Of a DNA stretch of 39,354 nucleotides, positions 2,194 to 18,013 are shown piece by piece. Position 1 is the stretch's first letter. Each line of letters opens with the position of its first letter. Made by a program: the position numbers and the translations under genes. The DNA comes from an uncultured Clostridia bacterium. GTDB lineage: Bacteria; Bacillota; Clostridia; Christensenellales; UBA1242. The stretch covers positions 1 to 39,354 of the forward strand of contig CAMVKM010000004.1 of the NCBI GenBank assembly GCA_947168085.1. Reading direction: 5' to 3'. A model generated the notes under the pieces. The model did no database searches and was not told the DNA's origin. It saw only the letters and a list, made by a program, of their open reading frames with translations.

Positions 2194-3264
2194 ATGAACA
2201 TCGAAAGACTTTTTATTGACAACTTTAGAAATCTAAAAACTCAAACCATCGATTTTTCAAATGGTCTTAATGTTTTGTGTGGAAAAAATGCGCAAGGCAA
2301 AACAAACACCCTTGAAGCAATTTATCTTGCAACAATAGGCCGTTCTCCCCGCACCCGAAAAGATAGTGAAATGATTGCATTTTTTAACCCAGCACTAACA
2401 CTTGAATCAAAACTTGAATTTTGCCATCAAGATGTAAAACATTCAATTTCATTTAAGATAAAGGGCTCACAAAAACAAATTTTTGTTGATGATTTTAAGT
2501 TGGACAAACTTAGTGATGTTATTGGAAATTTTGGTTCTGTTTACTTTGATCCAAACACAATCGAACTCATTCATGGTGGCCCATCAAACAGACGAAAATT
2601 TATGGACATCATAAATTGCCAGATTTCAAAAAATTATTTAAAAGCCCTTCAAAACTTTCAACATATTTTGGAGCAAAGAAATGCGCTTTTAAAAACCGAC
2701 GGCGACACAAAAAACCAAATGCAAATTTGGGATGACCAGGTTGCAAAATATGGCACATATATTTACGAAGCACGAAAAACATTTTGCTCAAAACTTTTGC
2801 CTGTTGCAAAACGCATTCACAAAAGCCTTTCACAAGGTGAAGAGTTTGAACTTGACTACATCAGTTTTTTGGAAAATGAAAACACAGAAGATTGCTACAA
2901 AAAAAGTTTAAAAGAAACCTATGACAAAGACAAACTTTTGGGCTACACAAGTTTTGGAATTCAAAATGATGACTTTGTTGTAAAGATTAACGGAAAAGAT
3001 GCTAGACGAACAGGAAGTTATGGACAAATTAGAACGGTTGCACTTTCACTAAAACTTGCTGAACATGAACTTTTAAAAGATGAGTATGGTGATTTTCCTG
3101 TACTTTTGGTTGATGACATTTTAAGTTCATTAGACGAAGACAGAAGACAAAAACTTGTTGAGTACATAAGCCAATTTCAATGCATTCTTACATGCAATGA
3201 ATTTTTGGAAGACATTCCTTGCCAAAAGTTTTTGGTGGAAGATGGTGTGATTGAAAAACTTTGA
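2194..3264 (+). CDS. recF: DNA replication/repair protein RecF
   Basis: SMC-like ATPase that works with RecO and RecR to load RecA at single-strand gaps. The 356-residue protein has Walker A GKNAQGKTNT (30-39) and, near the C-terminus, the ABC-type Walker B and D-loop LLVDDILSSLDEDRR (about 304-318). Its length is typical. A good AAAGGAG site precedes the ATG. It is the first gene of a long co-directional unit that ends with gyrA; the next gene begins 18 bases after its stop. Confidence 0.96.
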   Translation: MNIERLFIDNFRNLKTQTIDFSNGLNVLCGKNAQGKTNTLEAIYLATIGRSPRTRKDSEMIAFFNPALTLESKLEFCHQDVKHSISFKIKGSQKQIFVDDFKLDKLSDVIGNFGSVYFDPNTIELIHGGPSNRRKFMDIINCQISKNYLKALQNFQHILEQRNALLKTDGDTKNQMQIWDDQVAKYGTYIYEARKTFCSKLLPVAKRIHKSLSQGEEFELDYISFLENENTEDCYKKSLKETYDKDKLLGYTSFGIQNDDFVVKINGKDARRTGSYGQIRTVALSLKLAEHELLKDEYGDFPVLLVDDILSSLDEDRRQKLVEYISQFQCILTCNEFLEDIPCQKFLVEDGVIEKL

Positions 3265-3282: not shown

Positions 3283-4467
3283 ATGACAGACGCAGACAAA
3301 AAAGTAAAAATTGAAAAAGAAACATTTTTTGTTCATGGCGGTTTTGGAAAAAGAGTTCCAAAAACAGACCAAAATCCAAATGGTTGGGAAGAGTGTTTTT
3401 TTGACCTAGACAAAATTAACAGAAACAAAAAAACAATTCTTTACTTTGGTGGAAATGGAACCGTTGAGGCTGGACATGCGAATTTTGGCTGTAAACTTGT
3501 TGAGAGTTTGGTTGGACGAGCAGAAGAAAATGGTTTTGACCTTTTTGGGTTTTACTATTCTCATGAAAAAACAACAAAAAAATATATTGACACAAAAACA
3601 GGTAAACCAATTTTGGATGAAACAACAGGGCTTTTAATGGAAACAGAATCGGCAGACAATGCTTGTTTTGACGAAAAACAATTATCTCAAATTTACAACG
3701 CCTTTTTGTTTCCGCTTTTGGTTGATGAAAATGGAAATGTTTTTAAAGAAAATGAAATTAAAAAAAATTTGGGCAATTTAAGAATTTTTGCATATTGCAA
3801 AGGCAGTGAAGAAACAAACAAACTTTTGGATTGTGCAAATGAGTTTTTAACAAAAAATTTTGGTGAGCAAAAATCAAAAGAACTTTTAAGCAATGTGTTT
3901 GTTGTTCATTTTGCACCCTTTAAGGAGCCCAAATGGGGAACTAATGTTGAATTTAAAAGTTTGCGTGATTACTTAACATCTTTTCCAAACATTGCAAACA
4001 AACAAGGTTGGGGATTTAGTGTGGATGAACCGTTTTTGGGGGTTGCGCAAACAGACTTTAACAAAAACAAAAATGGAATTGAAGTGTTTTCCAATTCTTT
4101 TGTGTCTGTTGAAGATGTTTTAAGTGAAAATCATGCGGATGCACATTCAATTTCAAATTTTTTAAAAATTGATGGCGTAATTGATCGTCTTGCTTTGCCG
4201 GGAATTGATGATTTTAGTAAAGAAGAAAAGCAAGAATTGTATGAATTAAAAAAACAAGGGAAAACAGGAAAAAGACCTCAAGGTTACAGCAGGCAACAAG
4301 CCATATCGGACCTTATGAGTTCAGCGCTAAGTTATGGTCTTGTGCACGATAAACCAAACTTAGATGAAATTAAAATGATTTTGGACGCTCAACTAAAATT
4401 TGAAAATCAAATTCAACCAGAAAAACAGCAAAAAAAACTTTTTGAAGAAGGAATGAAAAAATCTTAA
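3283..4467 (+). CDS. Hydrolase-like hypothetical protein, paralogue 1
   Basis: I do not recognise a named family. The 394-residue soluble protein is a clear paralogue of the next gene: shared blocks include SLVGRAEENGFDL, the NLR(I/F) strand, LLSNVFVV, GVIDRL and YSRQQAISD. The order of elements suggests an alpha/beta-hydrolase fold: a strand KKTILYFGGNG (about 49-59) that could give the oxyanion hole, a possible nucleophile elbow AYCKG with Cys172, and a conserved His288 before the GVIDRL block. The Cys/His pair is kept in both copies. No signal peptide or membrane segment is seen. It sits between recF and gyrB, preceded by a strong AAAGGAGG site, so it is co-transcribed with replication genes. 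Function is unknown; the fold is inference. Confidence 0.85.
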   Translation: MTDADKKVKIEKETFFVHGGFGKRVPKTDQNPNGWEECFFDLDKINRNKKTILYFGGNGTVEAGHANFGCKLVESLVGRAEENGFDLFGFYYSHEKTTKKYIDTKTGKPILDETTGLLMETESADNACFDEKQLSQIYNAFLFPLLVDENGNVFKENEIKKNLGNLRIFAYCKGSEETNKLLDCANEFLTKNFGEQKSKELLSNVFVVHFAPFKEPKWGTNVEFKSLRDYLTSFPNIANKQGWGFSVDEPFLGVAQTDFNKNKNGIEVFSNSFVSVEDVLSENHADAHSISNFLKIDGVIDRLALPGIDDFSKEEKQELYELKKQGKTGKRPQGYSRQQAISDLMSSALSYGLVHDKPNLDEIKMILDAQLKFENQIQPEKQQKKLFEEGMKKS

Positions 4468-4509: not shown

Positions 4510-5865
4510 ATGGACGAGTTAACCCCAGAAGAAATGATAAGAAAAAAACGTCAAGCTCAACAAGAACACCAAAAGAAGCGAGAAGAACAAATTAGGCAAG
4601 AAAAGCAAGACAAACTAAACAGCAATCCAGGAGGGGTTGGAAGGCGCATTAAACCATTGCCACCAAACGAGCTTGAAAGAATTTTGAAAACTGGCACAGA
4701 AGAAGAAAAAAGCAAGGCGTTTTTTGAAAATGGAAGGCCACGAAATTGGGAAGAATTAAGTTATGACAAAACAAAAATAAACAAAGACAAAAAAACGATT
4801 TTGGTTTTTCCTGGTGATGCTAGTGTTGAGCCATTTGATGCAAATTTTTATGCAAAATTTGTTGAAAGTTTGGTTGGACGAGCTGAAGAAAATGGTTTTG
4901 ATCTTTACTCGTTTTATCATGACAAATTTGAAAAGAACAAACGACGTGGAACTTTTTCGGATAAACATCTTGAAAAGATTTACAAAAGTTTTGTTGAGCC
5001 ACTAATTAAAGATGAAAATGGAAAGTTTTTTAAAGAAAAAGAAATTGCAAAAAATTTTGGGAATTTAAGATTTGTGACTCACTGTTTTGGTGATTTGGAA
5101 GTGGACAAACTTTTGGTTAAAACATCAGAAGTTTTGGCAGAAAAGTTTGATGAAGAAAAAACGCAGCAGTTGCTTTCAAATGTGTTTGTTGTGGGTTATG
5201 CTCCATGGATACCTTTTCACAAGTTTGGAACACATGTGCAGTTTCACAGCAAGCAAGACAAAAACTTGATGTTTCCAGACAAAAAGTTGGAAGCATTAAA
5301 AGATTTTGAAGGTTTTGCAAAAATTTTTGAAGAACCTCTTAAAAATTCAATAACAGTGATTTCAGACACTTTTGCCGATTTTTCAAAAAGTTTAGATGAA
5401 CACCAAATTGCACTTTTGCTAAAAGAAGGTGGAGTGATTGACCGTTTGCAATTTGCCGATGCTCAAAAGCTTTCAAAACAAAAGCAAGAAGAACTTAAAA
5501 GCCAAAAGAAAAATTATGCCAACAATGTTTTGCCAAGAACGGCTGATTACAGTAGGCAACAAGCCATTTCAGACATGTTTGCAAGTGTTCTTGCTTACAG
5601 CATTGTTACAGACAACTTAAGTTTGGAAGATGTGAAAATGATTTTACAAGCCCAAATAAACATGGAAAACAAAATTTGGCCAGAACAAAAAAGGATGAAA
5701 AAAGAAACCGAGAAAAAAAGGCAAAAAGATTTAGATGTGAATGTTAATAAAAACAGCATTGAAGAAGAATTAAAAAATCACACAGCATTAAATCCAAAAC
5801 AATTTTTTGCTTCGGCAAATGCCTATAAAAAATCTAAACCAAAAAACTTTGGAGACAAAGATTAA
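4510..5865 (+). CDS. Hydrolase-like hypothetical protein, paralogue 2
   Basis: The 451-residue paralogue of the preceding gene. It has an extra N-terminal charged helical segment (about 1-50, rich in Lys, Glu, Gln, Arg) and a longer basic C-terminal tail (about 390-451) ending FGDKD. The shared core has KKTILVFPGD, THCFG with Cys192 aligned to Cys172 of the first copy, LLSNVFVVGYAP, and His298 before GVIDRL. ADYSRQQAISD marks the end of the homologous core. Both tails and the absence of a signal peptide suggest a cytoplasmic protein. Start: ATG at 4510 after AAAAGGAGAAAA. It lies 31 bases upstream of gyrB. Function unknown. Confidence 0.85.
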   Translation: MDELTPEEMIRKKRQAQQEHQKKREEQIRQEKQDKLNSNPGGVGRRIKPLPPNELERILKTGTEEEKSKAFFENGRPRNWEELSYDKTKINKDKKTILVFPGDASVEPFDANFYAKFVESLVGRAEENGFDLYSFYHDKFEKNKRRGTFSDKHLEKIYKSFVEPLIKDENGKFFKEKEIAKNFGNLRFVTHCFGDLEVDKLLVKTSEVLAEKFDEEKTQQLLSNVFVVGYAPWIPFHKFGTHVQFHSKQDKNLMFPDKKLEALKDFEGFAKIFEEPLKNSITVISDTFADFSKSLDEHQIALLLKEGGVIDRLQFADAQKLSKQKQEELKSQKKNYANNVLPRTADYSRQQAISDMFASVLAYSIVTDNLSLEDVKMILQAQINMENKIWPEQKRMKKETEKKRQKDLDVNVNKNSIEEELKNHTALNPKQFFASANAYKKSKPKNFGDKD

Positions 5866-5872
5866 AATATAA

Positions 5873-7804
<1,932 letters not shown>

Positions 7805-7806
7805 TT

Positions 7807-7935
7807 ATGAAACAAAAATACACACCAACACTAAAAAAAGCAAAAGTAAAGCAAATTGTTGAAAGCCTAAAGACAAAACAAAAAATTGAAATTGCAGCAA
7901 AAATTGCAAACAAATTAAATGAGCAAACAAAGTAA
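7807..7935 (+). CDS. Very small basic ORF (42 aa) after gyrB
   Basis: An ATG two bases after the gyrB stop opens a 42-codon frame coding a Lys-rich, helix-prone peptide (begins MKQKYTPTLKKAK, ends KLNEQTK). No clear ribosome site is seen, so it would need coupling to gyrB translation. It ends 18 bases before the next gene and fills what would otherwise be a 149-base gap. It may be real or chance; it resembles no family I know. Confidence 0.35.
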   Translation: MKQKYTPTLKKAKVKQIVESLKTKQKIEIAAKIANKLNEQTK

Positions 7936-7953: not shown

Positions 7954-9504
7954 ATGAACACCAAACAAAGACAGCACAAAATGCTTGACGAAATTTTTGC
8001 AAGCAAAGATTTTGAAAGAAATGTAACTTTTTTTAAAGATGAGTTTAAACAAATTGCAAAAGACTTTGTTGACGTCTTTGATTTGACTGATGAAAGCATT
8101 TTGATGTTAAAAAGTTTGTATGTAAAACCTTTTGGCTTTTTTGACAAACAGCAAGGTCAGTTTTATGGATTTTACAACTACTATCCATTAAAATTTGATG
8201 GCCAATTTGTTGGCAATTCAAAAATATCATTAAATCCAACAGGGTTTTTGGAAGATGATGATGAAGAACAAATTTTTGATTTGAGTTTGCTTGAAAAAAA
8301 TTTGCTTGATGAAGAAATTAAAAACGATGATTTGCTGCATGTTGATATTTGCCAGGCACTAACACATGAAATGAGCCACTTTTTTAGCAGAAAAGAAATG
8401 GAAATTTTGGATGAAAACCAAAATGAGTTAACGCAAAAAGACATTGGCACAGAAAAAGCAAAAAATGGAAATGTTTTGCTTTTTAATGGTGGAGTTGCGC
8501 ATGGCTTGATGCATTTGGATGAAAGTGGAAATTTGGTTTTGTTTGATGATGCAAATTTTAGTTTACAGCAAATTGTTGACGAGGAAATGCAAGAACAAGA
8601 TTTTGAAGAAAACAGCATCACACAAGACACTTTTCAAGATGATTATTTGGAAAACCAGTTTAATGAACAAACAGTTTTGATAGACAGGTTAGACGACACG
8701 GTTTTTGGAAAATATGCAACAAACTTTCATGAAGGCATGACTGAATTTTTTGCCCAAAAACTCATAAAAAACAGCACGGCAAAAGCATTAAAAAAACTAA
8801 GAGAAGATGAAAAATTATTTAATAATTTAAAAACCTACAACACAGAAGCTTCTTATGTTGCGATGATGCACGCACTTAACGGACAAGCGTTGGAAAAAGT
8901 TCATTTTCAAGGCCAAAAGTTTTGGAACATTCCTGTTTTGCAGCAAGAATTTGTTGATGATTTTCGCTTGATTTTTGAAAGTTTTGAAAAGGTGCAAGAA
9001 ATTTTGAATGAAAATGAAATGATTTGTGATGAACTTGATTTTTTGGATGAAATTGAAGAAACCACAAAACTTTCGAAAGAAGAGTTGCAACAACAACAAA
9101 AATTTGAACAACAGCTAAAAGAAAACAACGAAAAAATTGTAAGCGGTTTTGAAGAGTTTTGTGTTGAAACAAAATCAATTTTAAAGCGACAGCAAAAAAA
9201 TGTGAAAAAAGCACTTGATGATGGACAAATAAATTTGAATCAACTAAAAGATTACTTTGTTGCACGCAATGGGTTGGTGTCTGCAAAAAGTTGGTTTGAA
9301 GAATTTTTGTTTAATGAAGATGTTGAGTTTGAAAAAATTGAAGAGTTAACAAACAAACATTTTAAAGAATTTGAAGTTAGTTTTCAAGACAACAAAAATG
9401 AGTCGAACGAAATTGTGAAAAATGTTAAAATAAAACAAAAGCTAAAACAAGCACACCAAAACGCATTAAAACTAAAAAATGTTTTAGAGCAAAGAAAACT
9501 TTAA
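7954..9504 (+). CDS. HExxH zinc metallopeptidase-like protein, paralogue 1
   Basis: A 516-residue soluble protein without signal peptide. It carries the zinc-protease motif HEMSH (138-142) and, 117 residues later, HEGMTE (259-264), whose Glu260 is placed like the third zinc ligand of gluzincins. The next gene has the same pair of motifs at 26-residue spacing, so the acidic segment between them here (about 145-250) looks like an insertion. The C-terminal third is charged, rich in Gln, Glu and Lys, and helix-prone. The ATG follows AAAAGGAGC. Lying between gyrB and gyrA, it is presumably co-expressed with gyrase. The substrate is unknown; peptidase activity is inferred from motifs only. Confidence 0.85.
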   Translation: MNTKQRQHKMLDEIFASKDFERNVTFFKDEFKQIAKDFVDVFDLTDESILMLKSLYVKPFGFFDKQQGQFYGFYNYYPLKFDGQFVGNSKISLNPTGFLEDDDEEQIFDLSLLEKNLLDEEIKNDDLLHVDICQALTHEMSHFFSRKEMEILDENQNELTQKDIGTEKAKNGNVLLFNGGVAHGLMHLDESGNLVLFDDANFSLQQIVDEEMQEQDFEENSITQDTFQDDYLENQFNEQTVLIDRLDDTVFGKYATNFHEGMTEFFAQKLIKNSTAKALKKLREDEKLFNNLKTYNTEASYVAMMHALNGQALEKVHFQGQKFWNIPVLQQEFVDDFRLIFESFEKVQEILNENEMICDELDFLDEIEETTKLSKEELQQQQKFEQQLKENNEKIVSGFEEFCVETKSILKRQQKNVKKALDDGQINLNQLKDYFVARNGLVSAKSWFEEFLFNEDVEFEKIEELTNKHFKEFEVSFQDNKNESNEIVKNVKIKQKLKQAHQNALKLKNVLEQRKL

Positions 9505-9518
9505 AAGGAGAAAAAGAC

Positions 9519-11420
9519 ATGGCAAAACTAAGTGAACAAGAACAAGAAAACTTAAAGCAAGAAATTGACAAAATTGCAAGCAACAAAAAGTTTAACAAAA
9601 ATTGGCGAATAACAATGCATGGCAAGCAAAATCCAGAAACCAAAGAGTTTGAATTCGTATCTTTTTTTCCAGAAATTGTTAAAATGGTGGCGGAAGAATT
9701 TGGTGTTAAAAATTCTGCCGAAGTTTTAAAACACATAAAAGTAAAACCATTTGGTCGTTCGCAGATTAAACATCGAACGCAAAAAGTGATTACAAAAAAA
9801 CAAACAGAAAATGGCATTGAAGAAAAAAAACTTTATATGGCAAACGCAAGAGGCTTGGAGTATAAAGCAACAAGCATAAACAAAAACAGCACGAATCAAA
9901 GCATAAAATTAAATCAATTTGTTTTTGGTGGTCATACATTAAGAGATTTTGATCTTGATGAATTTCATTTGGATTTAGAAAACTTTAATTGTGCACACAA
10001 TGATGCAATGCAAGCTTGGAGACAAGAAGAAATTACACAAGGAAACAAAAAAGCAGAAAAGGCAATTTTTTTGAGTAACGATGAAAAACAAAATGTTGAA
10101 TATTTGCTAAAACACAACAAAGAAGTTGAACAAGCGGAACAATTGGCGGAAGAAGAATTTTTTGCTCAACTTGTGAAAGAAAAAAAGGAAAAAATGAAAA
10201 ACGACCCAAAAGGGTTTGCTGATTGGCTTGAAAACAAAGCAGCACAAGATGATTTTGTTTTGAAATCACTTGATGAATTTAGACAGCGACACAAAAAACA
10301 AGAGCAAGCAAAAAAACAGAAAAAAACAAAAAAATTAAAAGAATCAATTGTAACATCACCAAAAATTAAAGATGAACTTGTTGCCGAAGGATTTAGGGCC
10401 GTGTTTAATGATGAAGAACAAGAAAAGTTTGAACAAGCATTAAAAGAACTTAAAAAAAGAAATTTAAATCCCGGCGCAAAAATGGCAAAAAAGGCAAAGC
10501 TTCAGGAAAACTTTGCAAAAAAAGTTTTGTTTTCACCTTTTGTCAGTGATGTTGGCATAAATAGCGTTCAGGCAGCAATGAGAAAAACCACAACTCATGA
10601 ATGGCTACATGCTGTTGTAAAACAAGAAAAAAATGCGGGTGCAAAAGTTTGGGGTGGCGTAGATTTGGATCAGCAAAATCTTTTGCATGAGGGCATGACC
10701 GAGTGGCTTACGCAGCAAGTTTTAAAAAATCACCCAACATTTTACTTGACAAATGAGCAAATTAAAAACAACGAAAAACCAAATATGATTGCTTATGAGC
10801 CATATGTTGCTTATGTAGACATTATGGAAACATTGTTTCCGGGAAGTGTTGAAGATGTGTTTTTTAATGGCACACAAGCAAAAACAAATCACACTTGCCA
10901 AAGTGTTCAAGTAAAAACAGGTTTTGCTTTGGACAATGGTGAAACCAAAATAAAAGAACAACCATTTTCGTTTGAAATGTTGCAGCAAAAATTTCAACCC
11001 TTGGAAGAACTAGACAATCTAACAAATCAACAAGGTGAATTAGATTACAAAAAAATTAAGGAAAATTTGCTACAAATTTCAACAGATTTTGCTTTTATAA
11101 AAAAACAAGCACAAAAAATGCGAGATTTGGGCATTGTTGATGATGATGCGCTGATTAGAGTTTCGCAAGACACGGACACTTGTTGGGAAAAAATAGGCGC
11201 AAAACAACTTTGGAAAGTTGTTGAAGAGCAAGAAAGCAAAAACCAAAATTTGCCACAGTCGAAAGAAGAAGCCTTAAAACAGGCGGGTTTTGAGCAAGAG
11301 GAAAAACCAGAAAATTACAAAGAAGAAAATTTAAAGTTTGTGCCCGAAAAACTAAACAAATTTGACAGAGAAGAAAGAACAATAATCACAAAACCAGACG
11401 ATGAACTTGGTTTTTATTAA
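9519..11420 (+). CDS. HExxH zinc metallopeptidase-like protein, paralogue 2
   Basis: A 633-residue paralogue of the preceding protein. Shared features include the N-terminal VKPFG segment, HEWLH (360-364) and HEGMTE (390-395). The 26-residue gap between the HExxH and the HEG(x)TE Glu fits the gluzincin layout (HExxH ... E). A long charged insertion (about 165-330, Lys/Glu/Gln-rich, probably coiled-coil) precedes the catalytic core. There is no signal peptide, so a cytoplasmic substrate is likely. The gene starts 14 bases after its paralogue with its own AAAAGGAG site and ends 24 bases before gyrA. Known peptidases with this motif pair are diverse, so no substrate can be named. Confidence 0.85.
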   Translation: MAKLSEQEQENLKQEIDKIASNKKFNKNWRITMHGKQNPETKEFEFVSFFPEIVKMVAEEFGVKNSAEVLKHIKVKPFGRSQIKHRTQKVITKKQTENGIEEKKLYMANARGLEYKATSINKNSTNQSIKLNQFVFGGHTLRDFDLDEFHLDLENFNCAHNDAMQAWRQEEITQGNKKAEKAIFLSNDEKQNVEYLLKHNKEVEQAEQLAEEEFFAQLVKEKKEKMKNDPKGFADWLENKAAQDDFVLKSLDEFRQRHKKQEQAKKQKKTKKLKESIVTSPKIKDELVAEGFRAVFNDEEQEKFEQALKELKKRNLNPGAKMAKKAKLQENFAKKVLFSPFVSDVGINSVQAAMRKTTTHEWLHAVVKQEKNAGAKVWGGVDLDQQNLLHEGMTEWLTQQVLKNHPTFYLTNEQIKNNEKPNMIAYEPYVAYVDIMETLFPGSVEDVFFNGTQAKTNHTCQSVQVKTGFALDNGETKIKEQPFSFEMLQQKFQPLEELDNLTNQQGELDYKKIKENLLQISTDFAFIKKQAQKMRDLGIVDDDALIRVSQDTDTCWEKIGAKQLWKVVEEQESKNQNLPQSKEEALKQAGFEQEEKPENYKEENLKFVPEKLNKFDREERTIITKPDDELGFY

Positions 11421-11444: not shown

Positions 11445-14081
11445 ATGGAAGACGGAATTGAAACCATTATGGACAAAGACAGCCAGATGATCAAAGTGCC
11501 GGTTGTTGATGAAATGAAAAAAAGTTTTATTGCCTATGCAATGGCAGTAAATGTTTCGCGTGCAATCCCAGATGTGCGTGATGGACTTAAACCAGTTCAT
11601 CGAAGAATACTTTATTCAATGGGAGAACTTAACTTGTTTTCAGACAAGCCCTATCGTAAATGTGCCCGCATTGTTGGTGACGTTTTGGGTAAATATCACC
11701 CACATGGCGACAGTGCTGTTTATGAAGCATTGGTTAGGTTTGCTCAAGATTTTACTCTTAGAGCGCCACTTGTTGACGGACATGGAAACTTTGGTTCGGT
11801 TGATGGCGACCCAGCAGCAGCCATGCGTTACACCGAAGCACGTTTAAGTAAAATTGCTGCTGAAATGCTAAGAGATTTGGACAAAGACAGTGTTGACTTT
11901 GCTCCAAACTTTGACGACACACTCATGCAGCCAGTTGTGCTTCCTGCGCGTTTTCCAAACCTTTTGGTTAATGGTGCTGACGGAATTGCGGTTGGAATGG
12001 CAACAGCAATTCCAACACACAACTTGGGCGAAGTTATTGACGGAGTTGTGGCTCTTATTAACAATCCAGACATCACCATTGATCAGCTTATGGACTACAT
12101 AAAAGCGCCAGATTATCCAACTGGTGGAATCATTATGGGGCGCATGGGAATAAGGCAAGCCTACAAAACCGGACACGGAAAAGTTGTTGTTCGCGGAAGG
12201 TGCGAAATTGAAGAGGACGACAAAGAGCGTTTTCACATTGTAATTACAGAAATTCCACACCAAGTTAACAAGGCTCTGCTCATTCAACAAATGGCAAATC
12301 TTGTTAAAGACAAAAAGATTGAAGGAATTTCAGACATTCACGAAGAAAGTGACCGTGAAGGAATGCGCGTTGTTGTGGACATTAAAAAAGATGCAAACCC
12401 ACAAGTTGTGTTAAACCTTTTGTACAAGCACACACAACTGCAAACAAGTGCAGGAATCACATTTTTGGCATTAGTTGGAAAAGAACCAAAAATTTTGAAC
12501 TTAAAAGAAATGCTTTTCTACTACCTTGAACACCAAAAAGAAGTTATTGTTAGAAGAACAAAATTTGATTTAGCAAAAGCACAAGAGCGAGAACACATTG
12601 TTGAAGGTCTTGTAAAAGCGCTTCAAAACATTGACGAAGTTGTTAAAATCATAAAATCTTCAAAAGAGCGTTCTGATGCACTAAATGCCCTTATGACTAA
12701 ACTAGATTTAACAGAAAAACAAGCAAATGCAATTTTGGAAATGAGACTTGTGCGCCTTACTGCACTTGAAATTTCAAAACTTGAAAATGAACTTTTGGAA
12801 CTTCAAAAATTCTGCGCCGAAATGCAAAGTATTTTGGATAGCCCAACCAAAGTTTTAACAATTATTGCAAAAGAACTTTTGGAAATCAAGGCAAAATATG
12901 CAACTCCAAGAAAAAGTGAAATTAGCCATGATGTTGGTTCAATTGAAATTGAAGACCTTATTGCACGTGAAGACATGGTTGTTTCAATGACCAAACAGGG
13001 TTATGTTAAACGTATGGCAGTTAGTGAGTATCACACACAAAACCGTGGTGGAGTTGGAAACACCTTCCACAAAACAAAAGACAACGACTTTGTGGACAAC
13101 ATGTTTGTTGCAAACACTCATGACCAACTTATGTTCTTTACAAACAAAGGAAAAGTTTACTGCCTAAAAACCTATGAAGTGCCAGAAAGCACAAAAGGAA
13201 GCAAGGGCAGGGCAATTGTAAACCTACTTCAAGTTGACCAAGACGAAAAAGTTAATGCAATGATTTGCCGTAAAAAAGAAATGGATGGAGAAAAACTTTT
13301 CCTTGTTATGGCAACAAAAAAAGGCTTTATTAAAAAGACAAAACTTTCTGAGTTTGATTCAATTCGCCAAGTTGGTAAAAAAGCAATTGTTTTAGATGAA
13401 GATGATGAACTTATTTCTGTTCAAATTTCTGATGGCAGCCAAGACATTTTGGTTGCATCAAGCGCAGGACGATGCATGAGATTTTCGGAAAATGATGTTA
13501 GACAAAGTGGAAGATCAAGCCAAGGTGTTAAGGCAATGAAACTTCAAGAAGGCGCAACTCTTGTTGATATGGTTGTGGTTTTTGAGGGCAGCGAAATGCT
13601 TACTGTTACCGAAAACGGCTTTGGAAAACGTGTTAAGGTTGAAGATTACAGAAGGCAAGCAAGACGAGGAATGGGTGTTAGTGCCGGAAAACTTAACGAC
13701 AAAACTGGCATGGTTGTGGCACTAAAACAAATTACACCAGGTGACGACATTTTGCTTATTACAGACGCAGGTGTTGCAATTAGAATTAATTCTGAAAGCA
13801 TAAGGCTTTTGTCTAGAACAGCAATGGGCGTTAAGATGATGAGACTAAAAGGAAACAGCAAAGTGGCATCAGTTGCAGTTATGGCGCCAGACGACACTCA
13901 AACCCCAGTTGATGTTGAACAAGTGGCAAAAGAAATTCAAGAAGTTGAAGAACAAGTTGAAGGTGTTGTGGTTGCAACCCCAGACACTTCAAACCTTGAA
14001 ATGGACTATGAAATTCCAACCATGGATTTTGAAGACGAAGATGCCGACAAAGAAGAAAGCGAAGAAGACATTGAAGAATGA
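11445..14081 (+). CDS. gyrA: DNA gyrase subunit A
   Basis: DNA cleavage-rejoining subunit of gyrase. The 878-residue protein has the breakage-reunion domain with the opening [18 protein letters not shown], the quinolone-region motif [12 protein letters not shown] and catalytic Tyr129 in AMRYTEARL. The C-terminal beta-pinwheel repeats follow from about residue 510. The GyrA box, usually close to QRRGGKG, reads QARRGMG (738-744) here. The tail (about 820-878) is strongly acidic. A start at 11445 after a GGAG site gives a normal N-terminus. It is the last gene of the operon; a bidirectional hairpin follows. Confidence 0.96.
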
Positions 14082-17024: not shown

Positions 17025-17666
17025 ATGAACATCTTAAAAGGTTATGAAGAACAATTAAGTGGAATTTTTAGTGATTGGATTAAAGTTCAAGACTTTAAAA
17101 ATCCACTCACACTAGACAATTTTTCTAAAAATGGTGTTCCCGCAGAAATGGTTAAACCACACTGTGCGGTTTGTACAACAGTAAACCAATGCTGGTTTAA
17201 AAATGAAGAAAACAAAAAACCAAAAGAAATGGACTATGACAGTTATTCCAAATTTAACAGAAAACAAAAAGGGCTTTATCACCCTTATTGCCACTGCCAA
17301 AAAAGGGGACTTAATCCACCAAAAGAAGAAGATATTAAAATTGTTCTAGACAAAAACAAAGAAAATTATTTTTTTAATTCAAAAGGAAATTGGTTTTATT
17401 CTTGGGGATATAAAGATAAAGACAAAAATGATTTTATAAAAACACTAAAAGAAAAAATCATAAAGGCCTATGTTAGAGGAAATTATATAAATGGAAAATA
17501 TGATTTTGAAGAACAAAAGAAATATGGTTTTAGAATAAATATTTTTGTTACCATTGATGGAGTAAATGAAAACAAAGGACATTTTTATGATATGAAATCT
17601 GGTTTTATTGTTTATCCAAATGGAAGATTAAAAAACACAACGCCACTTATAAGGAGGGAAAAATGA
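17025..17666 (+). CDS. Small toxin-like protein of a toxin/immunity pair
   Basis: A 213-residue protein without signal peptide or membrane segment. The N-terminal half has a putative zinc site: HCAVC (46-50), Cys56 and HPYCHC (86-91), which recalls the HPxCRC end of phage Mu F / SPP1 gp7-like head proteins. The C-terminal half (about 105-213) has a strand-rich domain with YSWGY and a closing block FRINIFVTI...SGFIVYPNGRLKNTTPL. That closing block recurs as a fragment at 18171, as expected of an exchangeable C-terminal toxin domain. The stop overlaps the ATG of the next gene (ATGA), so the two are translationally coupled. A toxin role is inferred from this layout and from the DUF4926-like neighbour; I recall DUF6883-like proteins next to DUF4926, unverified here. 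Confidence 0.7.
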   Translation: MNILKGYEEQLSGIFSDWIKVQDFKNPLTLDNFSKNGVPAEMVKPHCAVCTTVNQCWFKNEENKKPKEMDYDSYSKFNRKQKGLYHPYCHCQKRGLNPPKEEDIKIVLDKNKENYFFNSKGNWFYSWGYKDKDKNDFIKTLKEKIIKAYVRGNYINGKYDFEEQKKYGFRINIFVTIDGVNENKGHFYDMKSGFIVYPNGRLKNTTPLIRREK

Positions 17667-18013
17667 GAATAAAATATTTAGATAAAGTGAGAGTTTTAAA
17701 AGACAATGAGAATTATAAAAAATCTAATGTTTTTGCCGGAGATGTTGGAGTTGTTTGGCTTCCTGAAATTCGAGATAACACATTTTATGTTATGTTTGAA
17801 AATGGAGAACAAGATTTTGACAAATTGGATTGTGTTGAAACTTGCATAAAGATTGAAGATTTGGAATTGGTTGAAGACTATGGTTTAACAAACGAACAAA
17901 TTGCCGAATCTTTGCCTTCTGATGAGCTTTGGTGGTGCGTTGTTGAAGACGGGTTCATCAAAAATATTAAGGGCGAAAAAAAGAACAAAATCCCTTTTGA
18001 CTATGATTCTTAA
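17663..18013 (+). CDS. Putative immunity protein, SH3/DUF4926-like, with WWC tail
   Basis: A 116-residue acidic protein. Residues 1-70 form a small beta-barrel pattern (YLDKVRVL, then GDVGVVWLPEI, then FYVMFE) like KOW/SH3 or DUF4926 domains. A conserved C-terminal block follows (WWCVVEDGFIKN, KGEKKNKIPFDYDS). It overlaps the upstream toxin-like gene by four bases, the usual arrangement of a toxin and its antidote. The gene at 26003 is a close paralogue throughout, including the last 14 residues and the 3' untranslated bases. The start ATG follows AAGGAGGGAAAA. Confidence 0.75.
   Translation: MRIKYLDKVRVLKDNENYKKSNVFAGDVGVVWLPEIRDNTFYVMFENGEQDFDKLDCVETCIKIEDLELVEDYGLTNEQIAESLPSDELWWCVVEDGFIKNIKGEKKNKIPFDYDS

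Follow-up and report, generated by a model that had tools for sequence, protein, structure and literature searches.

Why should two proteins carrying HExxH motifs lie between gyrB and gyrA? The locus offers a concrete case of fast-evolving genes settling in an essential operon, either as conflict genes in a safe harbour or with a replication function that has been missed. The window analysed here, a stretch of 39,354 nucleotides, comes from a 1.13 Mb Clostridia MAG that represents a small-genome rumen bacterium. The public relatives found are Clostridia MAGs, two of which carry reindeer or roe deer rumen in their names. The initial annotation had described two cytoplasmic HExxH proteins in this position, each with a later HEGMTE, at a spacing of 117 residues in one and 26 in the other. 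Both open reading frames and both motifs are confirmed, and the residue positions give the same spacings (Table 1). An HExxH is expected by chance about 0.007 times per 516 aa, and among all frames in the window with a length of 150 aa or more, none but P0001 and P0002 contains one. Simple hydropathy finds no hydrophobic segment or signal peptide in either protein, and the cytoplasmic assignment holds at that level.

Table 1. Positions of genes and motifs in the recF-gyrA region of the window.
Feature	Position	Strand	Remarks
recF (host operon)	2194..3264	+	
P0003, variable-family protein, recF-gyrB slot	3283..4467	+	no Pfam match
P0004, paralogue of P0003 (41% identical)	4510..5865	+	
gyrB	5897..7804	+	
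P0001, 516 aa, gluzincin-like, gyrB-gyrA slot, HEMSH...HEGMTE, spacing 117 residues	7954..9504	+	
P0001 HEMSH motif, residues 138-142 (H138-E139-H142)	8365..8379	+	
P0001 HEGMTE motif, residues 259-264	8728..8745	+	Glu 260 = putative third metal ligand; Glu 264 = conserved acid
P0001 conserved Tyr 295	8836..8838	+	Tyr in 44/45 family members
P0002, 633 aa, gluzincin-like, gyrB-gyrA slot, HEWLH...HEGMTE, spacing 26 residues	9519..11420	+	
P0002 HEWLH motif, residues 360-364 (H360-E361-H364)	10596..10610	+	inside predicted helix 345-366
P0002 HEGMTE motif, residues 390-395 (Glu 391 after HExxH)	10686..10703	+	inside predicted helix 383-404
P0002 conserved Tyr 426	10794..10796	+	
gyrA	11445..14081	+	

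The genes run in the order dnaA, recF, P0003, P0004, gyrB, P0001, P0002, gyrA, with gaps of 149, 14 and 24 nt between gyrB and P0001, P0001 and P0002, and P0002 and gyrA, respectively. AGGAG-type ribosome-binding sites are present upstream of both P0001 and P0002. A consensus scan of the window places a terminator-like site downstream of dnaA, and the sole such site on the + strand from recF to gyrA is a weak, chance-level match within the gyrB coding sequence. The scan fits a single transcript from recF to gyrA, without proving it. P0001 and P0002 are distant homologues of one another, with homology in the region C-terminal to HEGMTE. Recent horizontal import of the pair was rejected, since their codon-position GC is that of the host genes. 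A 42-codon Lys-rich frame (window 7807-7935) begins two bases past the gyrB stop and finishes 5' of P0001, and no such frame is found behind gyrB in the DNA of the relatives G002, G003 and G005.

We assessed the conservation of the motif residues in alignments of increasing depth. Relatives from the window's own genus lie in the same slot, and the eleven proteins of alignment A1 share H, E, H, G, G, H, E, T, E, Y and G without exception; the addition of distant members (alignment A6, 20 cores) reduces the invariant set to H, H, G, E, E and Y. Alignments A4 and A7, which place the P0001 HExxH out of register, were left out in favour of A1 and an alignment of 45 members. In the latter, the HExxH residues are retained in 43/44 (H), 42/44 (E) and 43/44 (H) sequences, the exceptions being degenerate copies. 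The third-ligand Glu is found in 42 of the 45, and an acid lies four residues beyond it in 44 (38 Glu, 6 Asp). The only columns above 80% are the start Met, H-E-H, the later Glu, the +4 acid, the Tyr and two Gly; most others fall below 70%. Gluzincins are defined by HExxH together with (E,H)xx(A,F,T,S,G) on the following helix (PMC7213743). The fourth position of the second motif is Thr in 22 members and Val in 20, the latter lying outside this published set. Taken as a whole, the residue set of the family reads as that of a gluzincin zinc peptidase. Thermolysin has Asp170 at the +4 position, and a Glu/Asp exchange there is what would be expected of gluzincins. The motif residues are thus the most conserved of the family, in A6 as among the 45 members, contrary to the refuting condition set by the initial annotation (no conservation in orthologues), and the description of the two proteins as metallopeptidase-like is well supported.

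The distance from HExxH to the later Glu takes values of 22, 26, 42-46, 55-75, 87, 97 and 117 across the family; it lies between 22 and about 97 in most members, and P0001 provides the value of 117. The two window proteins do differ in length here, as the initial annotation noted, but the single gain or loss of a segment that it proposed does not fit a spacing that varies continuously over the family. The difference is better described as a hypervariable loop between the motif helices, lying partly on each side of a conserved GG, with the active domain apparently unbroken. We consider that most family members are probably active metallopeptidases. If so, they form an undescribed metallopeptidase family in which hardly anything is conserved beyond the catalytic residues.

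Pfam (also at a permissive threshold), NCBIfam and PADLOC give no family match for these proteins, a PDB sequence search returns nothing relevant, and a literature search found no report of a metallopeptidase inside a gyrase operon. Gluzincins of clan MA(E) (thermolysin M4, M1, M61, PF13485) have in common with the family the HExxH, the later Glu on the next helix as putative third ligand and the +4 acid; the family differs in lacking a significant family-level match and in its unusually variable spacing, from 22 to over 100 residues. Peptidase_MA_2 (PF13485) is not matched by hmmscan, and hhalign spans the HExxH helix alone, although a low-threshold profile alignment sets the EG of HEGMTE against its TEG. 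ArdC-type peptidases of the MPTase-PolyVal family (PF18818) are ssDNA-binding gluzincins of mobile elements. They resemble the family in their HE[LM]xH and in their second motif, an EExxxE that is close to the EEAIVE and EEGVVE of the recF-slot branch, but their N-terminal DNA-binding domain is not recognised here. A single core of 20 gives a sub-threshold Pfam match to PF18818 (E 0.098), and among the genomes sampled from this bacterial family PF18818 has zero matches. Profile-profile scores against Peptidase_MA_2 and the ArdC type are 32.5 and 30.0, compared with maxima of 21.1 and 21.8 for motif-preserving column shuffles, and both alignments are confined to the HExxH helix. Membership in either family was rejected, the similarity being that of a helix and not of a domain. 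SprT/Spartan-type crosslink proteases share the HExxH and the idea of acting near a topoisomerase; they differ in that P0001 and P0002 have as putative third ligand a Glu on an ExxxE helix, and neither Pfam nor NCBIfam returns a match to SprT. Two AlphaFold models, built from 8-row alignments, have a mean pLDDT of 62-63 and carry local confidence only; in these low-confidence models HExxH and HEGMTE are predicted on separate helices. Three Foldseek searches gave no match at E <= 0.001, and a zincin fold with clustered ligands is not claimed.

The family is narrowly distributed. An A6 profile search finds members in 41/309 genomes and 11/42 genera of this Clostridia family, a lower bound since weak members in further genera could escape detection. 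Searches across the class (391 genomes from 222 genera) and across the order (215 genomes from 108 genera) return members from the window's own genus only. Plasmid records, phage records and viral contigs contain no match, and a phage or plasmid origin was rejected on this basis. The family is previously unclassified and, among the sampled families of the order and class, restricted to one Clostridia family.

We then compared the recF-gyrB-gyrA locus between the genus of the window (g1) and a second genus (g41), in which it is readable at least partly in nine and five genomes, respectively. The MAGs are fragmented, and one (G001) has 8% contamination. All 14 readable loci hold between one and five family copies, the copy seen in G008 being the C-terminal end of a recF-slot member at a contig edge. 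Arrays of three to five occur, and in g41 up to five copies lie in tandem in the recF-gyrB interval. A copy adjoins recF and/or polA in another three g41 genomes. In two g1 genomes the gyrB-gyrA interval contains no peptidase. In other genera gyrB and gyrA are adjacent in 20/20 genomes, no family member is found at the locus (0/20), and members are located away from gyrase. Peptidases in the gyrase operon, which the initial annotation called unusual, are so within this bacterial family. GyrB is 81-82% identical between g1 and g41, so occupation of the locus represents one or a few evolutionary events rather than 14 independent ones. In the tree, copies on the recF-gyrB side form one branch across both genera (SH-aLRT 96), which also contains one relocated g1 copy. 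The gyrB-gyrA copies group on another branch, found in g1 only, and the deep branches are poorly resolved. Since the recF-side branch contains both genera, the recF-gyrB position is probably ancestral to them. In these two related genera the family persists within a gene cluster that is among the most conserved in bacteria.

The sequences at this position have changed quickly. Family copies in g1 and g41 have a median identity of about 25%, while GyrB is 78-96% identical within g1 and 87-97% within g41. Ortholog pairs from G072 and G109 are 54-77% identical, with GyrB at 97%. dN/dS is 0.31-0.41 for g1 ortholog pairs of the family and 0.02 for GyrB, the latter measured in a g41 pair; among g41 copy pairs, synonymous sites are saturated in two of three and the third gives 0.09. 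Selection on the copies is purifying but loose. Some copies have lost the motif: a G006 copy reads HQLLH in place of HExxH (L028 7570-8877), and a member of the G109 tandem, 473 aa long, is without it (L096 8129-9550). Both are probably dead enzymes. Taken together, the low identity, the dN/dS values and the lost motifs indicate that in most copies selection keeps the active site intact and the remainder diverges.

The peptidases are not the only variable genes here. Proteins of the P0003/P0004 type occur at the locus in G000 (twice), G003 and G049; their family, likewise unclassified, is scattered over 74/306 genomes of the bacterial family, mostly elsewhere than this locus. By eye they have a conserved Y-C-x-G / H-C-x-G motif, which recalls Cys-nucleophile alpha/beta hydrolases. 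The slots of G004 and G008 contain short charged proteins. The recF-gyrB-gyrA locus is thus one that takes in several fast-evolving gene families, and the presence of unrelated variable genes in its slots is the main argument against a specific gyrase function of the position.

The P0003 homologue of G049 (L094 9711-11387), which lies in the gyrB-gyrA slot, is interrupted by a TAA stop in frame, and so would be a broken gene or a MAG error. A conserved protein of 150-165 aa with FYFGGFG lies between gyrB and gyrA in the g41 genomes G072 and G109 (L095 2117-2575; L096 565-1062); it has no Pfam match and by eye is possibly SLOG-like. A protein 3' of gyrB in G145 (L097 9941-12001), likewise without a Pfam match, has C..GYA, HAFN and D.CWD stretches and by eye looks like a transglutaminase-like peptidase; the next frame, again by eye, begins like the N-terminus of the same protein.

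Our preferred reading, to which we give a probability of roughly 40%, is that P0001 and P0002 are active cytoplasmic gluzincin-type peptidases of a conflict type, co-expressed from an essential operon. In the corresponding mechanism, zinc would be coordinated by the two HExxH His together with the first Glu of HE-G-x-T-E, and the HExxH Glu would serve as general base. One of the metal-binding His would be oriented by the acid at +4 from the third ligand, the part played by Asp170 in thermolysin, and the oxyanion would be stabilised by the invariant Tyr. A fixed catalytic core would sit in a fast-diversifying recognition shell, within a clade-restricted birth-and-death family with tandem duplicates and dead copies that would serve in intracellular defence, or in competition among strains or mobile elements. 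Copies that came to lie in the dnaA-recF-gyrB-gyrA cluster, next to the origin, would be co-transcribed with essential genes, constitutive and hard to lose. The gyrase operon would be the expression site of the peptidases and not their target. The argument for a conflict role is the family's style of evolution, since no defence model, plasmid, phage or viral contig was matched. The fuller proposal, that these new hypervariable intracellular zinc peptidases use the cluster as a protected, constitutive site and form an arms-race protease repertoire at the origin, is tentative and somewhat unlikely as it stands.

The position of the recF-gyrB copies, kept over two genera, is stabler than that of typical defence genes and could reflect a function tied to replication. 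Other non-gyrase genes are known near recF and gyrB. Bacillus subtilis has yaaB/remB between the two. Mycobacterial dciA, once a gene without known function and now known to encode the replication factor DciA, lies in a dnaN-recF operon beside gyrB-gyrA (PMC5720831). Both genes are small, conserved and non-peptidase, yet the P0001/P0002 family is large, hypervariable, multi-copy and peptidase-like, and it also splits gyrB from gyrA. A housekeeping peptidase that processes, regulates or clears gyrase, RecF or DNA-protein crosslinks, its position reflecting its function, would account for the copies at all 14 g1 and g41 loci, for those that adjoin recF and/or polA in three more g41 genomes, and for the single recF-side branch; ArdC, moreover, is a gluzincin able to act with DNA (PMC7213743). 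Such a role is hard to reconcile with copies at about 25% identity beside GyrB at 78-97%, with the two g1 genomes in which gyrB and gyrA enclose no peptidase, with members off the cluster in other genera and with the majority of genomes of the bacterial family, in which no member is detectable. Unrelated genes occupy the same slots, and no DNA-binding domain is recognised in the family. We regard a replication-linked role as unlikely, and it keeps the weight it has through the stable recF-side position and the DciA precedent. Dedicated processing of gyrase is disfavoured, since gyrase evolves much more slowly than the copies, certain of these have lost catalysis and the slots accept unrelated variable genes. 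The suggestion that the two proteins could process gyrase, guard it, or target DNA-protein crosslinks is unsupported and unlikely on these same grounds and by the limitation of the ArdC-type alignment to one helix. Of the initial interpretation, the metallopeptidase character and the unusual location stand, and no support was found for the gyrase or crosslink role.

The dead copies, their turnover, the unrelated cargo families and the frame-broken P0003 homologue of G049 could also point to largely passive cargo, made up of genes that are selfish or close to neutral and that tolerate the locus since the operon cannot be lost. However, dN/dS of 0.31-0.41 and the near invariance of the catalytic residues show that function is under selection, making this distinctly unlikely. 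Regulatory peptidases of the ImmA/IrrE type, cutting a repressor encoded elsewhere, are likewise cytoplasmic HExxH proteins without a signal peptide, and IrrE is reported to cleave DdrO (PMC5552922). We consider such a role improbable here, as Pfam M78 is not matched even at a permissive threshold and no partner repressor gene was recognised beside the copies at the loci read. It is similarly doubtful that the proteins are effectors for other cells, such as competitor bacteria or rumen protozoa, exported by an unrecognised route: rapid diversification, clade restriction, tandem arrays and neighbours that are hydrolase-like or (by eye only) transglutaminase-like would suit effectors, but the lack of a signal peptide or hydrophobic segment and the co-expression with gyrase would not.

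At window 17025-18013, a Cys/His-rich protein (PHC..C..VN.CWFKNEENKKP) is followed by a small acidic protein. The pair has no Pfam match and is also seen near g11 HExxH genes (L051 3824-5259, L052 2169-3183, L107 2569-3583 and L108 2550-3986).
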